DNA of 64,000 nucleotides from Paludibacter sp. (GTDB taxonomy: Bacteria > Bacteroidota > Bacteroidia > Bacteroidales > Paludibacteraceae). Below the pieces are notes generated by a model. It saw only the letters and a list, made by a program, of their open reading frames with translations, did no database searches and had not been told where the DNA came from. Of the stretch, positions 11,886 to 54,260 are shown piece by piece. The position numbers were made by a program, and so were the translations under genes. The stretch covers positions 310,001 through 374,000 of the forward strand of contig JANJVQ010000036.1 of the NCBI GenBank assembly GCA_024710005.1, written 5' to 3'. Positions within the stretch are counted from its first letter, which is position 1. Each line of letters opens with the position of its first letter.

Positions 11886-12692
11886 ATGCATTTTCAGCAT
11901 TTATACAAGCAAATCGATTCGCGACAATCTGTTTTTTACGGATGGTTTCAGGCCATGCACACCCGTATAGATATCGCGCTGTGCAGACTCGATGAGCAGC
12001 GTGCACTGGAGCTGACTGAGAAAATCTACGCGGAAATAAACCGGATTGAGCGCATGGCCGACCGGTTCAATCCGCAAAGCGAAATCAGCCTGATCAACCG
12101 GCTGGCTGCTGTTGAGCCTCTTCCCGTTTCTGATGAATGGTTTGCAATGATAGAACAGTGTATCAATTACAACCGGATCAGTGCAGGTCTTTTCGATGTT
12201 ACGGTAAATTCTTTGAATAATCACAAAGATGGAATTAATGAGATTGAACTTGATCCAGAGCTGAAAACCGTGTATTTTAAACATCCGGATGTACAAATTG
12301 ATTTGAATGGTTACATCAAGGGATATGCGCTGGATAAGGTAAAAGATATTCTGCTGGAAAATCAATGTAATGATGCGCTCGTTAATATGGGCAATAGTTC
12401 AATTCTTGCACTTGGAAATCATCCCAATGGGGAAGGGTGGAAGGTGAATGTGCCGGGAAAAGATAATGAGTATGTAATACTGGTGAATGAGTGTTTAACA
12501 AGTTCTGGAAATAAGTCAGATTATCGTCATATCATCAACCCTTTAACAGGAATTGCAATTGAGAATTTAAATGTTTGTTCAGTTATCACTGCGAATGCAA
12601 CTGATGGGGAAGTACTGGCAACTACATCTTGCATTGGAGCCCCGGAGTTGCAGAATGCACTTTGCGAACATTTTAATGGGATTAAATTATAA
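11886..12692 (+). CDS. ApbE-like FAD:protein FMN transferase
   Basis: A 268-residue ApbE-family protein. Visible motifs are FYGWFQAMHTRIDI near the start, DLNGYIKGYALD (family: DLGGIAKGYAVD), NMGNSSILALGN, LTSSGNKSDYRHIINPLTG and a final ATDGEVLATT. In the family this last motif is ADALAT with a metal-binding Asp and Thr; here the aligned acidic residue is Glu. Usual length is about 300-340 with an export signal; this one has none whether started at 11853 or 11886. It could act in the cytoplasm or be a divergent, altered-activity copy. It lies between the DUF1080 and GH43 genes with short spacers, so it probably shares their transcript. No flavin-accepting partner with a D-x-x-(S/T)-G-A-(S/T) motif was noticed nearby. 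Confidence 0.8.
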   Translation: MHFQHLYKQIDSRQSVFYGWFQAMHTRIDIALCRLDEQRALELTEKIYAEINRIERMADRFNPQSEISLINRLAAVEPLPVSDEWFAMIEQCINYNRISAGLFDVTVNSLNNHKDGINEIELDPELKTVYFKHPDVQIDLNGYIKGYALDKVKDILLENQCNDALVNMGNSSILALGNHPNGEGWKVNVPGKDNEYVILVNECLTSSGNKSDYRHIINPLTGIAIENLNVCSVITANATDGEVLATTSCIGAPELQNALCEHFNGIKL

Positions 12693-12698
12693 AAAAAC

Positions 12699-13718
12699 AT
12701 GTTTAGTATGGATAAATTATTGAAAATCTGTTTGCTGGTAGTTGTATTGTTAATTGTTTCGTTTGAGGTGCCGGGTCAGAAGAAGATGAGCGGAAATCCT
12801 GTTTTTGAGGGATGGTATGCCGACCCCGAGGGAATCATATATGATGACACCTATTGGATTTATCCGACAACGAGTGATAAATACGAAAAACAAACTTTCT
12901 TTGATTGTTTTTCATCGAAAGATTTGGTTAACTGGACCAGGCATCCGAATATAATTGATACGGCTGAAGTTAAGTGGGCAAAGATTGCCATGTGGGCGCC
13001 TTCAGTAATCCGGAATAACAACAAATACTATTTCTTTTTTGCCGCGAATGATGTGCACGAAGGAGAAACCGGCGGTATTGGAGTTGCTGTGGCTGATCGT
13101 CCACAGGGACCTTACAAGGACTTATTGGGTAAGCCATTAATTAATAAAATTGTGAACGGTGCTCAACCGATTGACCAGTTTGTTTTCAAAGATAAGGATG
13201 GTACACATTACATGTATTATGGTGGTTGGGGACATTGCAATGTTGTGAAGTTAAACGAAGATTTCACCGCGTTGGTTCCTTTCGATAATGGGGAAATGTA
13301 TAAAGAAGTTACACCACAAGGTTATGTTGAAGGTCCGTTTATGTTTATCAAAAACGGTAAGTATTATTTTATGTGGAGTGAAGGCGGTTGGGGCGGACCG
13401 GATTATTCGGTTGCTTATGCCATTGCCGATTCTCCTTTCGGTCCGTTTAAACGTATCGGAAAGATCCTGGAACAAGATCCTAAAGTAGCTACCGGTGCCG
13501 GACATCATTCTGTCATGCATGTGCCCGGTTCCGACGATTATTATATCGTGTATCACCGTCGCCCGATCAATGTAACCGAACGTGATCACCGGGTCACATG
13601 TGTAGATAAAATGACCTTTGATGAAAATGGTTTTATAAATCCCGTGAAGATTACTTTTGAGGGTGTTAAATCAAGAAAGATTTTATCGCCTCGGCCACCA
13701 AAGGTATCCCCTCGTTGA
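12699..13718 (+). CDS. Glycoside hydrolase family 43 protein
   Basis: A 339-residue exported GH43-type enzyme. A signal peptide covers about residues 1-26, followed by the first blade with the catalytic-base Asp in FEGWYADPEGIIYDD. The pKa-modulating Asp is in IDQFVFKDKDG and the general-acid Glu in YVEGPFMFIKNGKYYF. The five-bladed propeller fits the family, whose members mainly cleave arabinosides or xylosides. It follows the ApbE-like gene by 6 nt and ends the oxidoreductase-DUF1080 operon. Its last 17 codons overlap the 3' end of the convergent aminotransferase gene, so the C-terminal KSRKILSPRPPKVSPR is encoded antisense to that gene and is probably a read-through extension. Confidence 0.87.
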   Translation: MFSMDKLLKICLLVVVLLIVSFEVPGQKKMSGNPVFEGWYADPEGIIYDDTYWIYPTTSDKYEKQTFFDCFSSKDLVNWTRHPNIIDTAEVKWAKIAMWAPSVIRNNNKYYFFFAANDVHEGETGGIGVAVADRPQGPYKDLLGKPLINKIVNGAQPIDQFVFKDKDGTHYMYYGGWGHCNVVKLNEDFTALVPFDNGEMYKEVTPQGYVEGPFMFIKNGKYYFMWSEGGWGGPDYSVAYAIADSPFGPFKRIGKILEQDPKVATGAGHHSVMHVPGSDDYYIVYHRRPINVTERDHRVTCVDKMTFDENGFINPVKITFEGVKSRKILSPRPPKVSPR

Positions 13719-15983: not shown

Positions 15984-16026
15984 AATTTTTTATTTTTAAA
16001 GTCTAACGTCAGTAAATAGCGAATAA

Positions 16027-16075
16027 CGAATAACTAATAGCTAATAGCTATTCACTATTCGATATTAGTTATTCG
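16027..16075. repeat. Inverted repeat spanning the paaK stop
   Basis: Arms CGAATAACTAATA (16027-16039) and TATTAGTTATTCG (16063-16075) are perfect complements. The right arm lies inside the last codons of paaK. The same GCGAATA/CTAATAG vocabulary recurs at 33446-33518, 36262-36330 and about 44458-44490. Confidence 0.55.
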
Positions 16076-33445: not shown

Positions 33446-33518
33446 ACGAAAAGCGAATAACGAAAAGCGAATAGCTAATAGTGAATTTTGAAAATTATAT
33501 AGTTTTTAGCTATTAGCT
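33446..33518. repeat. GCGAATA/CTAATAG low-complexity repeat (murE-mraY spacer)
   Basis: Contains repeated AAAGCGAATA and TAGCTAATAG words with an inverted TATTAGCT at 33511-33518, giving a weak hairpin. Related tracts are at 16027, 36262 and about 44458 (reverse orientation). Confidence 0.45.
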
Positions 33519-34925: not shown

Positions 34926-36260
34926 ATGAAAAGAATAGTAGTTTTAGGTGCAGGTGAAAGCGGAACAGGTGCAGCAGTACTTGCAAAGCAACAGGGTTTT
35001 GATGTTTTTGTGTCGGACTTATCCGCCATCAAATCATCTTACAAAGCCATGCTGGAAGAACATCAAATTAGCTGGGAGGAGAAGCAACATACTGAGACCC
35101 TGATTCTGAACGCGGATGAAGTGATTAAAAGTCCGGGTATACCAGACAAAGCCCCACTGATGAAAAAAATTGTGGCGCAGGGTATCCCGGTGATTTCTGA
35201 GATTGAATTCGCAGGTCGGTATACCGATGCTAAAATGATTTGTATCACCGGAAGTAACGGGAAAACGACCACGACTACGCTGATTTATCATATCCTGAAA
35301 AATGCGGGATTGGATGTTGGTCTGGCAGGCAATATCGGAAACAGTTTAGCTTTACAGGTGGCGCTTGAACCACATGCTTATTACGTGATTGAGCTGAGCA
35401 GTTTTCAACTCGATCACATGTTCGAATTCAAAGCTGATATTGCTGTTTTGCTGAATATTACACCAGATCATCTGGATCGCTATGATTACGAGTTTCAGAA
35501 CTACGTAGATGCGAAATTCAGAATAACACAAAATCAAACAGAGCGGGATGCTTTCATTTATTGGGAACAGGATCCTGTTATTCAAAAGGAGATGGCGAAG
35601 AGGAAAATACAATCGGCAATTTATCCTTTCGCGCTTGAAAAATCGGAGAAAACCAAAGCTTTCTTAACAGAAGAGAAACTAATTATTGATACCTTAAAAA
35701 CAATATTTGTTATGCCAACATCAGAATTAGCTTTACAGGGAATTCACAACACCTACAATTCCATGGCAGCCGGACTTACAGCTGCAGTACTTGATGTGAA
35801 AAAAGAAGTTATCCGGCAGTCTCTGCTCGATTTTCAGGGCGTGGAGCACCGGCTTGAATATGTGGCTACTGTTCGCAATGTGAAATTTGTGAACGACTCG
35901 AAAGCCACGAATGTCAACTCGTGTTGGTATGCACTGCAAAGTATGAAAACGCCGGTTGTGTTGATATTGGGAGGAACTGATAAAGGCAATGATTACAGCG
36001 AAATCGAAGAGTTGGTGCGTGATAAGGTTCGTGCTTTGGTGTTTTTGGGTGTTGATAATAAGCCATTGCATACTTATTTCGATGGGAAAAAAGAAATGAT
36101 TGCTGATGCTCTCTCGATGGAAGAAGCGGTTGACAAAGCATACCGGTTTGCAAGTGAGGGAGATACGGTGCTGTTGTCGCCCTGCTGCGCGAGTTTCGAT
36201 TTATTCGAGAACTACGAAGACAGGGGACGGCAGTTTAAGCAATGCGTGAGGGCGCTGTGA
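34926..36260 (+). CDS. murD: UDP-MurNAc-L-alanine:D-glutamate ligase
   Basis: A 444-residue Mur ligase. It opens IVVLGAGESGTGAAVLA (nucleotide-binding-like N-domain), with the ATP loop ITGSNGKTTTTTLIYHIL (about 102-120), ELSSFQLDHMFEFK and NITPDHLDRYD in the central domain, and VNDSKATNVNS in the third. ATG 34926 is chosen because the upstream in-frame start at 34845 would translate the spacer repeats. It adds D-Glu to UDP-MurNAc-Ala in the cytoplasm. Confidence 0.95.
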   Translation: MKRIVVLGAGESGTGAAVLAKQQGFDVFVSDLSAIKSSYKAMLEEHQISWEEKQHTETLILNADEVIKSPGIPDKAPLMKKIVAQGIPVISEIEFAGRYTDAKMICITGSNGKTTTTTLIYHILKNAGLDVGLAGNIGNSLALQVALEPHAYYVIELSSFQLDHMFEFKADIAVLLNITPDHLDRYDYEFQNYVDAKFRITQNQTERDAFIYWEQDPVIQKEMAKRKIQSAIYPFALEKSEKTKAFLTEEKLIIDTLKTIFVMPTSELALQGIHNTYNSMAAGLTAAVLDVKKEVIRQSLLDFQGVEHRLEYVATVRNVKFVNDSKATNVNSCWYALQSMKTPVVLILGGTDKGNDYSEIEELVRDKVRALVFLGVDNKPLHTYFDGKKEMIADALSMEEAVDKAYRFASEGDTVLLSPCCASFDLFENYEDRGRQFKQCVRAL

Positions 36261-36261
36261 A

Positions 36262-36330
36262 AAGCGAAAAGCGAAAAGCGAATAGCTAATAGTGAATAAT
36301 GAATAGTGAATAATGGTGTCTGGTGTCCGG
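36262..36330. repeat. GCGAAAA/GTGAATA tandem words (murD-ftsW spacer)
   Basis: Short tandem words AAAAGCG (three times) then GAATAGTGAATAATG, followed by GGTGTCTGGTGTCCGGTGTC. It is low-complexity, noncoding and related to 33446-33518 and 16027-16075. Confidence 0.45.
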
Positions 36331-36368
36331 TGTCTGGCGACAGTAGACTGTAGACAAATCTTATTAAA

Positions 36369-42243: not shown

Positions 42244-42283
42244 AATAGTGGTTAGTGGTTAGTGGTCAGTGGATAGTTAATTA

Positions 42284-44385: not shown

Positions 44386-44530
44386 ATTGTTTTAATTTTA
44401 ATTTTTAAACCTTTAAACCATATAAGTTTTGTCGCAAATAATTTTCCGTTCTCTGCTTTTCGCTATTCACTATTCGTTATTCGCTCTCTGTTAATTTCAA
44501 TTTCCCTGCCAACGCAGAACCTGTCAGTTT

Positions 44531-52848: not shown

Positions 52849-53136
52849 TCAAGGTTAACTCCCGGTGGTGGTGTTAACATGGAAGGCACCCGCATTCGTA
52901 TCGCCGGCGATAACCCGGCCAATGGCATTGCGCTTGTTAACCAGCAAACAAATGTACCGGTTCAAATTCCGATGACATCTATCCTGCTGAATGATCCGAG
53001 TAAGGTTTCCTTTATTGTTCCGGCCGATTTGCCGGAGGGAGATTATAAGTTGCATTTGACAACGCAGTTTTCAGCAACGCATACGATGTTGAAAGAACCA
53101 CGTACTTATGTGTTGGAATATGTTCTGACAGTTTGA
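52849..53136 (+). pseudogene. DUF4469 Ig-like domain fragment (C-terminus only)
   Basis: An open frame from 52849 (after a stop at 52846-52848) reading LTPGGGVNMEGTRIRIAGD, then a beta-rich tail VSFIVPADLPEGDYKLHLTT and EPRTYVLEYVLTV. This is the C-terminal Ig-like DUF4469 domain that, in Bacteroidota, follows an HU-like DNA-binding domain of about 120 residues. The whole DNA-binding part is missing. The only start is ATG 52879. It abuts the damaged response regulator, so both were probably shortened by deletions here. A good terminator follows. Confidence 0.7.
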
Positions 53137-53158: not shown

Positions 53159-53188
53159 AAATCCCCTCATTTTTTGAGGGGATTTTTT
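53159..53188 (+). terminator. Rho-independent terminator after the DUF4469 fragment
   Basis: Stem AATCCCCTCA / TGAGGGGATT with a short T loop and a run of T after it, 22 nt past the stop of the fragment. It suggests the ancestral gene was complete. Confidence 0.88.
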
Positions 53189-53230
53189 GTGCCGCACACA
53201 AATTTAAATTTCACCAAAGTTATGTGTTTT

Positions 53231-53368
53231 ACTCAAATGCTTTGCATCGTCCGACTCAAACGACTTGAGACGTTCCTCTCAAGTGGTCTGCATCGCCCGA
53301 CTCAAATGGGTTGAGACGTACGACTCAAGGGGCTTGAGTAGTCCCACTCAAATGAGTTGAATGGGAAA
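53231..53368. repeat. 23 bp degenerate tandem array, six units
   Basis: ACTCAA (once TCTCAA) begins each unit at 53231, 53254, 53277, 53300, 53323 and 53346: an exact 23 bp period. Units 2, 4, 5 and 6 contain the dyad CTCAA-n5-TTGA(G). Units 1 and 3 share GCATCG instead of the right arm, and units 2 and 4 share GAGACGT, so there is also a 46 bp superperiod. There are no spacers, and 23 is not a multiple of 3. It lies between the terminator and the convergent gene at 53385. Confidence 0.8.
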
Positions 53369-53384
53369 AAATACAAATGTTGCT

Positions 53385-54260
53385 TTATTTCATGATTTCT
53401 ATAACTACCGGATAATGGTCTGAATAATAATTTGTGAAATCATCCTTAACGATGGCTGCTCTTTTTATTCTATGTTTTAGGCTCTTGCTGACATAAATAA
53501 AATCAATACGGTACGATGGTGTTTCACCTCCATTGGATGTCAAAAGAGTCGGAGCTGAATAATCATAAGGTTTGTTCAGTAGTTTAAAAGCATCGACGTA
53601 TCCGGCATTTACTATTTTCCTGTGGACTTCATAATCAAGCTGTCCATTACAAAGATTTGCATGTGTAGGATATTTATTGTCGTTAAAGTTAAATCTTTCC
53701 CAAAGTTTCCCGTCCTTGTAGGCTTCTGCATCAGATTCAGAAATGGAATTGAAGTCTCCCATGATGATGGTTTTCTTTTGATGATTGGGTTTGGATTGTG
53801 ACATTTGTAATATCAGGTCTGTTTCTTCTCTTCTTTTCTGATATTTATGTGGAGAAAGATGAATCACATAGATGCTATAGTCTAAAATCTCCGCCTTAAT
53901 AAATCCGTGCAGCATGTTGTCCAGGACTTTTTCGACATTGATAATCGGGAATTTCGAGGTTAACCCTACCGGATATCCTTTCTCTTTCAGTAATACTGCA
54001 TAAGGATGATTAAATTTACGGGCCAACTCTTCCAGTTGCTTTTGTGTAAAAGAATTAAGTTCCTGTAGAGCCAATATATCCGGATTTTGTGATTTTACCC
54101 AGGAAACAAAATAATCTTTGTTAGAAGTTGTGTCGAGTTTCATTCCTTCTAGAATGTTGTAACTGATGATTTTCAGATTTTTTTGTTGAGCCGAAAGATT
54201 GAAAGATATGCTGATAAAAAGCAACGTAATCACCATCCACCACAATTTATTGAAGTGCAT
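53385..54260 (-). CDS. Endonuclease/exonuclease/phosphatase-fold protein, exported
   Basis: Encodes 291 residues with a signal peptide (about 1-25, ending NLSAQ). The EEP fold shows SYNILEGM, DILALQELNSF (catalytic Glu), IIMGDFNSISESDAEA (Asp-Asn) and the final YYSDHYPVVIEI (Asp-His). These metal-binding residues are complete. Exported Bacteroidota members hydrolyse phosphodiesters or phosphates on lipids, sugars or nucleic acids; the substrate is unknown. It lies 51 nt downstream of the GH20-SGNH gene on the same strand and may be the last gene of that glycan locus, which also has a phosphodiester glycosidase. Confidence 0.85.
   Translation of the reverse strand: MHFNKLWWMVITLLFISISFNLSAQQKNLKIISYNILEGMKLDTTSNKDYFVSWVKSQNPDILALQELNSFTQKQLEELARKFNHPYAVLLKEKGYPVGLTSKFPIINVEKVLDNMLHGFIKAEILDYSIYVIHLSPHKYQKRREETDLILQMSQSKPNHQKKTIIMGDFNSISESDAEAYKDGKLWERFNFNDNKYPTHANLCNGQLDYEVHRKIVNAGYVDAFKLLNKPYDYSAPTLLTSNGGETPSYRIDFIYVSKSLKHRIKRAAIVKDDFTNYYSDHYPVVIEIMK

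Follow-up and report, generated by a model that had tools for sequence, protein, structure and literature searches.

A dispersed intergenic family of phased 23-bp dyad arrays in Paludibacter, constrained at the arms and possibly serving as sites for a dimeric DNA-binding protein

The short and long tandemly repeated repetitive sequences of cyanobacteria form dispersed intergenic tandem arrays, like the family described here, but they have other periods and inverted arms are not their defining feature. CRISPR arrays combine regular spacing with a partly palindromic repeat; unlike them, our family has no unique spacers, the 7–8 bp between the arms being itself repeated and the units standing head to tail. 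REP/BIME elements, as far as the account at hand describes them, are short intergenic palindromes that also occur in groups, whereas the units studied here show by eye no GTAG/CGTC end tag and keep one orientation and a fixed period (PMC3733652). The closest described system is BrickBuilt of Porphyromonas gingivalis, a 23-nt imperfect minisatellite within an IS5-type MITE that also has a leader, a tail and IS5-like ends (PMC4596501). In the portion of its description used here, BrickBuilt occupies 19 loci in strain ATCC 33277 with 1–22.8 repeats at each, three of the loci having neither leader nor tail; BLAST matches are given for P. gingivalis, with homologues in P. gulae (PMC4596501). The same source tells of MITE464/PgRS of P. 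gingivalis as 41-nt repeats and of the W83 repeats as 22-nt ones, and reports no homology between the 23- and 41-nt repeats (PMC4596501). These periods (22, 23 and 41) are the ones that recur in the Bacteroidales DNA scanned in this work; dyads are unmentioned in the portion of their description used, in contrast to the dyad units found here.

The statement of the initial annotation that no matching element had been described was too strong, because BrickBuilt is itself a set of 23-nt imperfect tandem repeats. As far as its description reaches, it shares with our arrays the imperfect tandem units of 23 nt, the intergenic position at many loci, the variable unit number and the predicted stem-loops. 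It differs in its leader, tail and terminal repeats, none of which was found at the nine arrays described below. The BrickBuilt 12-nt terminal inverted repeat, sought within 400 bp in eight stretches covering these arrays, gave best matches with 3–5 mismatches out of 12. The comparison was made by unit length and frame; the likeness is limited to the repeat part, with which our family may be akin. In the open-access literature we found no description of a YTCRA-n5-TYGAR family or of a Bacteroidales-wide period; as the search was mostly confined to open-access papers, this does not prove that no earlier report exists.

The window, i.e., the whole 64,000-nucleotide stretch of Paludibacter sp. 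DNA that was analysed, bears at 53231–53368 six tandem 23-bp units in exact phase, starting at 53231, 53254, 53277, 53300, 53323 and 53346, just as the initial annotation had it. All are read on the forward strand. Unit 2 (53254..53276, A-CTCAA-acgac-TTGAG-ACGTTCC) has a perfect 5-bp dyad, and the dyad is perfect also in units 4 (53300..53322, A-CTCAA-atggg-TTGAG-ACGTACG) and 5 (53323..53345, A-CTCAA-ggggc-TTGAG-TAGTCCC). The CTCAA-n5-TTGAG dyad had been ascribed to the even units and unit 5; it is present in units 2, 4 and 5 but not in unit 6 (53346..53361, A-CTCAA-atgag-TTGAA), which keeps four of five pairs and whose 3′ arm is the array end. Units 1 (53231..53253, A-CTCAA-atgct-TTGCA-TCGTCCG, two outer pairs unpaired) and 3 (53277..53299, T-CTCAA-gtggt-CTGCA-TCGCCCG, three of five pairs unpaired) share GCATCG, as noted earlier. 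The proposed 46-bp superperiod holds for units 1–4, where Tandem Repeats Finder gives period 46 (53231–53329, score 128), and not for the rest of the array, period 23 being reported for 53298–53360 (score 70).

A letter-blind scan of the window for four tandem dyads with periods 15–60 and unit identity of at least 0.5 listed this array and no other; in 100 first-order Markov windows of equal length it listed none. ACTCAA-n5-TTGAG with at most two mismatches occurred 24 times in the whole window against 22.1 expected, so the signal lies in the phasing and not in the motif count. The array folded better than shuffled sequence on either strand (z −3.45 and −5.20), and Rfam 15 at the gathering score gave no match in the window or in six loci containing seven of the other eight arrays. 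A phage origin was rejected for the window array (no match in 50,697 phage records), and a plasmid origin for the array designated C9 (no match in 72,556 plasmid records). The window also contains 7-bp tandem arrays (AATAGCT, GAATAGC, TAGTGGT etc.) at 16015–16050, 33447–33486, 36259–36337, 42246–42277 and 44455–44485, which resemble the heptamer repeats of cyanobacteria.

The initial annotation placed the array between convergent genes. Formally this holds, but the ORF on the left is only a remnant, the C-terminal 85 aa of a DUF4469 (HU-type) gene (52879..53136, forward strand; Pfam PF14734, E=4.7e-21) with three stops in its extended reading frame, and was treated as a neighbour. Between the remnant and the array lies a terminator-like hairpin (AAATCCCCTCA/TGAGGGGATTT plus a T run; 53159..53189, forward strand), seen by eye and absent from the output of the computed hairpin scan. 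The convergent gene on the right, which encodes an endonuclease/exonuclease/phosphatase family protein (53385..54260, reverse strand), has its stop at most 25 bp from the array. A Pfam scan of the six ORFs neighbouring the array revealed no Cas family in those six. The genome contains 12 DUF4469 matches, and an HU-DUF4469 gene or remnant adjoins two array loci, the one in the window and the ortholog of array C27 in the relative G027 (L072 3276–4213). At the latter the gene is intact, with a terminator, beside the array; at the C27 locus of our own genome, G000 (L065 3631–3768), it is gone while the terminator is retained. A link between the arrays and HU-DUF4469 proteins is suggestive only and post hoc, and no argument is built on DUF4469. 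A 44-bp direct repeat, 89% identical, stands on either side of the C27 array.

A pattern search followed by a sequence-only model (R1) disclosed nine arrays of one oriented unit in the genome (3.24 Mb, 36 contigs), named C6, C7, C9, C11, C17, C25 (the window array), C27, C34a and C34b; C28 holds one further weak short match, and two hits of the first pattern search, L014 and L015, proved to be chance single sites. The unit is n-YTCRA-n5-TYGAR with a WCGYYC-like spacer, repeated head to tail with a period of 23 bp, the centres of its half-sites being 10 bp apart. The arm letters are mostly CTCAA/TTGAG or TTCGA/TCGAA; the most divergent array, C34a, has the 3′ arm TCTAA or TCAAA in five of six units. 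The alternation with a 46-bp step is no family trait, being confined to the window array and to the beginning of a G027 array. The order in several others is CTCAA-type units, a GCATCG unit and then TTCGA-type units: wherever both arm types occur in an array the CTCAA units come first, and a GCATCG unit marks the junction in C7 (three species), in C9 and in the C34b orthologs of G027 and G029. Exceptions to this junction rule are C11 (GCATCG unit amid TTCGA units), the window array (CTCAA after GCATCG) and G027 C23 (GCA unit first). The last unit retains at least four of five arm pairs in seven of the nine arrays. Five of nine overlap a gene 3′ end or lie within about 55 bases of one, C9 overlapping the 3′ end of an ORF.

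No common leader or tail emerged between separate arrays when the 250-bp flanks of all nine were compared with one another; the matches found were 23 bp between C27 and C6 and the stretch between C34a and C34b, which both share. Nor was a consistent target duplication seen beside the nine arrays, the one candidate being a 7-bp TTCAGAA at C11. TTCGA-n5-TCGAA sites number 37 in the genome vs. 5 for the control, nine of them outside arrays; since isolated sites are near chance, interest attaches to the array rather than to single sites. GTAG-type palindromes, REP-like by eye (GTAGGGGCGTAACGCTTACGCCC; GTAGCGTCAGGCACTATCGCCCGTTAGCGGGTGACACTAC), occur near dyad arrays (L063 downstream of 7804, at the C7 array; L162 1690–1800).

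Comparison with orthologous arrays showed that units are gained and lost between species mostly in 23-bp steps. The array at mnmA (C7) has 10 units in G000, 9 in G027 and 8 in G069, the length differences from our own being 23 bp (G027) and 46 bp (G069). C17 spans 46 bp less in G027, and in G000 the first units of C34b are gone; the alignments of both C34b and C17 are poor at one end. The C9 and C27 orthologs differ by 3 and 5 substitutions without gaps, and the C11 ortholog is identical. In the C17 ortholog of G010 the phase is kept and the dyads are partly lost. A lack of indels out of phase was not accepted as proof of selection by itself, as the flanks are also indel-poor and the end of C17 in G069 differs out of phase.

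The arms are distinctly more conserved than the rest of the unit. Among 34 orthologous unit pairs, from arrays other than that of the window, substitutions affected 8/340 arm positions, 18/170 loop positions and 33/272 spacer positions (Fisher P=4.5e-7), i.e., 8/340 against 51/442 for loops and spacers together. This set counts C7 twice (G027 and G069) and omits the identical C11 units, C27 unit 6, the last C7 units vs. G069, partnerless C7 and C34b units, uncertain C17 units, and C34b vs. G029, G069 and G010. In a non-redundant subset of 25 pairs, without C17, the last C7 pair and the second use of C7, the counts were 4/250 vs. 25/325 (P=8e-4); they became 4/320 vs. 25/416 (P=9e-4) when C27 unit 6 and the C11 units, which are identical, were added. 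When the arm mask was moved through all 23 circular shifts in the non-redundant subset, the minimum fell at the true phase (4 changes vs. 8–21 elsewhere). Between related species the arms thus change 4–5 times less than loops and spacers. The arrays are real and are constrained at their arms, and the earlier impression that period and dyad look selected is supported by arm conservation, by the minimum at the true phase and by the 23-bp steps in the clearest comparisons. None of the eight arm pairs changed between orthologs was changed on both sides, and therefore the letters of the arms, and not pairing alone, are kept.

Within the genome, arm variants compensate each other between units. In a set of 49 of the 60 own units (A3), which leaves out seven array-end units, two identical repeats and two C34a units from inside the array whose middle pair is broken, 91.8% of arm cells were paired vs. 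86.6 in shuffles, and 21 changed cells were two-sided vs. 8.0, neither value being reached in 500 shuffles; slid controls gave at most 64% paired and at most one two-sided cell. All 58 distinct own units gave 88.3% paired (83.8 shuffled) and 22 two-sided cells (7.9), again with 0 of 500 shuffles as high. In set A2, 22 of the 71 three-unit rows were dropped before counting. The two-sided changes are confined to two of the five arm pairs, a number that, like the number of pair types, is no higher than in shuffles. Taken together, the ortholog and within-genome counts therefore indicate that letters are kept in the short term and complementary pairs in the long term at two positions. Mismatches of the A.C and G.T kinds numbered 16 to 10 in regular units (P=0.33) and 32 to 10 with the 11 GCA-type units included (P=9e-4), the latter readable as wobble on the other strand; this strand bias does not settle whether DNA or RNA is the acting form.

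In relatives the family is patchy; the counts that follow include our own genome each time, and searches over more than 40 genomes used stricter filters, under which weak matches are lost. Model R1 (E≤0.01) found it in 4 of 60 relatives, and the structured model R2 in 5 of 48 genomes of the genus (E≤0.001); R2 had matches in 6 of 393 genomes of the order (E≤1e-4) and in 1 of 296 of a phylum sample. Four of the five non-own genomes in the order search (G076, G266, G347 and G399) carry 23-bp dyad arrays with other letters. The fifth, G404, was set aside as a separate repeat style with 9/27-bp arrays (AATGGTTTG, CCCTCAAAC at L151 668–859 and L160 1477–1690). At mnmA, G029 lacks the array and G010 has it in decayed form, and by eye no array was seen at 25 more distant mnmA loci, two of which have less than 200 bp of upstream DNA. 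The window array was not conserved in place: G069, the sole relative in which the orthologous neighbour gene was found, has no array beside that gene, and the left flank of the window array, sought in G027, G029 and G010, gave a single 58-bp match, in G029. Since arrays are missing at these orthologous places, the array is dispensable. The combination that the initial annotation had set against its own reading, i.e., no similar arrays elsewhere and phase lost in close relatives, did not occur.

The loci with other letters keep the period of 23 bp: the arms are TTTCGA/TCGAAA in G076, pass from TATCGA/TCGATA to TATGCG/CGCATA and TATACG/CGTATA within a single array in G399, and are of adjacent TTCAG/CTGAA, GATAA/TTATC and AATAC/GTATT types in G266 and G347. 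At the G266/G347 locus (L162 1458–2000 and L175) several dyad modules with differing arms follow in a row, each with a 23-bp period; the two genomes, members of one genus, both retain them, with 10 substitutions in 513 aligned bases and gaps of 64 bp and 1 bp. The period of these four genomes is biased, because the loci were picked by a 23-bp model. A less biased set, 1.98 Mb of Bacteroidales DNA in all, took in 39 stretches of the order besides 80 named mnmA loci. It was not fully blind: L181 and L182, its two 23-bp rows, belong to the C7 array of relatives, which had been found earlier, and L299 comes from a different contig of G076, a genome picked by R2. Letter-blind dyads of three units with identity of at least 0.55 had periods of 21 (4), 22 (3), 23 (2) and 41 (7), with none in shuffles; four units with identity of at least 0.5 gave 21 (3), 22 (2), 23 (2), 41 (6) and 42 (1). 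Without the identity condition the periods were as scattered as in shuffles, the 80 mnmA loci yielding 60 rows with many periods vs. 35 in one mononucleotide shuffle. At a stricter cut (18/20 pairs), again without it, single rows appeared also at 29, 34 (two), 42 and 47, none of them above 0.33 in unit identity, and the shuffle gave two at the same cut.

Tandem Repeats Finder without a dyad condition (periods 12–65, at least 2.5 copies) gave in Bacteroidales non-coding DNA periods of 22 (9), 23 (6), 21 (2), 41 (3), 12–14 (nine) and four others. In 0.69 Mb from other orders of the class there were 10 arrays of 17–24 bp, five at 21–23, and letter-blind rows at 20 and 22 bp too. The share of 21–23 or 41–42 bp repeats in non-coding DNA, 20/24 in Bacteroidales vs. 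5/10 in the other orders, does not differ significantly (P=0.08); the 20/24 is extreme against a flat spread over 15–60, with periods chosen after the data were seen. In 200 kb of E. coli K-12 there was no array, a weak result with only about three expected at the Bacteroidales rate. A Parabacteroides MAG (L231 1466–1790) bears, between divergent ORFs, eight TTTCTAY-n4-TAGAA dyads exactly 41 bp apart, with spacers 40% identical vs. 31% expected from composition. L231 has a second 41-bp array (AGAATG..CATTCT) at 12572–12733.

The initial annotation had offered two readings, a row of RNA stem-loops or of DNA dimer sites about 2.2 turns apart. The DNA reading is favoured because the arm letters are conserved and the spacing in the 41-bp array is exact while its spacers drift; the whole-unit steps point the same way. 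We tentatively propose that the window array is a copy of a dispersed, clade-restricted intergenic minisatellite acting as phased sites for a putative dimeric DNA-binding protein. Each unit would present a pair of inverted half-sites, YTCRA-n5-TYGAR, with centres one helical turn apart and repeated every 23 bp; centres 10 bp apart fit a dimer on one face of DNA. The putative dimer would load cooperatively on several neighbouring sites, and the local nucleoprotein patch so formed might serve as a boundary, act as a sink for a regulator or shape transcription between genes, while slippage or recombination between units would probably account for spread and copy number. Conserved inverted half-sites at helical spacing are what a dimer-site array should have, and they were found; the nine arrays, arm conservation, the minimum at the true phase, the two-sided variants and the recurrence of the period with other letters all support this reading. 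Against it, 23 bp makes 2.2 turns rather than a whole number, and arrays of three turns were not seen; the arm letters switch within one G266 locus, which would be odd if one protein read them; isolated sites are not clearly enriched; arrays are dispensable; and two-sided changes involve only two of five pairs.

A serious rival, possible though we hold it unlikely, is a selfish or neutral minisatellite without host function, in which slippage or unequal exchange multiplies units, hairpin-templated repair keeps the arms complementary and the copying mechanism sets the 23 bp. The patchy occurrence in the genus, the gain and loss of whole units, the decay in G010, the differing presence between close relatives and the many 21–23 and 41 bp repeats in Bacteroidales non-coding DNA, with dyads or not, would all suit it. 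Templated repair, however, predicts two-sided changes between orthologs, which were not observed; the slower change of the arms, lowest at the true phase, speaks against it as well, and it does not evidently explain why the period should be near-constant across unrelated letters. That a transcript folds into a row of stem-loops protecting 3′ ends, stalling polymerase or binding an RNA-binding protein appears rather improbable to us. Folding beats shuffles on both strands, but any tandem palindrome gives such an excess; the A.C excess, expected if the RNA is the other strand, is not significant without the GCA-type units. Such an RNA element would agree with the two-sided arm variants between units and with the five arrays near or overlapping gene 3′ ends, yet stem-loops need no exact spacer length, no Rfam family matched, and arm letters are kept between species. 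Least probable, indeed very unlikely, is a degenerate BrickBuilt-like MITE, a non-autonomous transposon reduced to its internal 23-nt minisatellite. The equal length of imperfect intergenic units, their variable number and the three of 19 described ATCC 33277 loci with neither leader nor tail would fit such an origin (PMC4596501), but the nine arrays have no common leader or tail and a lone target-duplication candidate, and the BrickBuilt terminal repeat was not found near them.

A broader proposal, which we regard as doubtful, is that phased dyad arrays form an order-wide class in Bacteroidales, with the length held near two (21–23 bp) or four (41–42 bp) helical turns and the arm letters changing wholesale, even within one array with the phase kept, which a machine reading geometry or dyads would keep as architecture or boundary elements. 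If this is true, the 22-, 23- and 41-nt repeats of P. gingivalis would be local cases of one rule. The 23-nt minisatellites of Porphyromonas had been explained as the interior of a transposon, whereas for the family described here no transposon frame was found. Constrained arms, and a period common to unrelated letters, turn what might pass for repeat clutter into the testable question of what holds the period near two or four helical turns although the letters can vary. If a protein holds it, an unrecognised DNA-organising or regulatory factor would exist in an order of major standing in the gut and the environment; should a copying mechanism be responsible, the period would be a clue to that mechanism.
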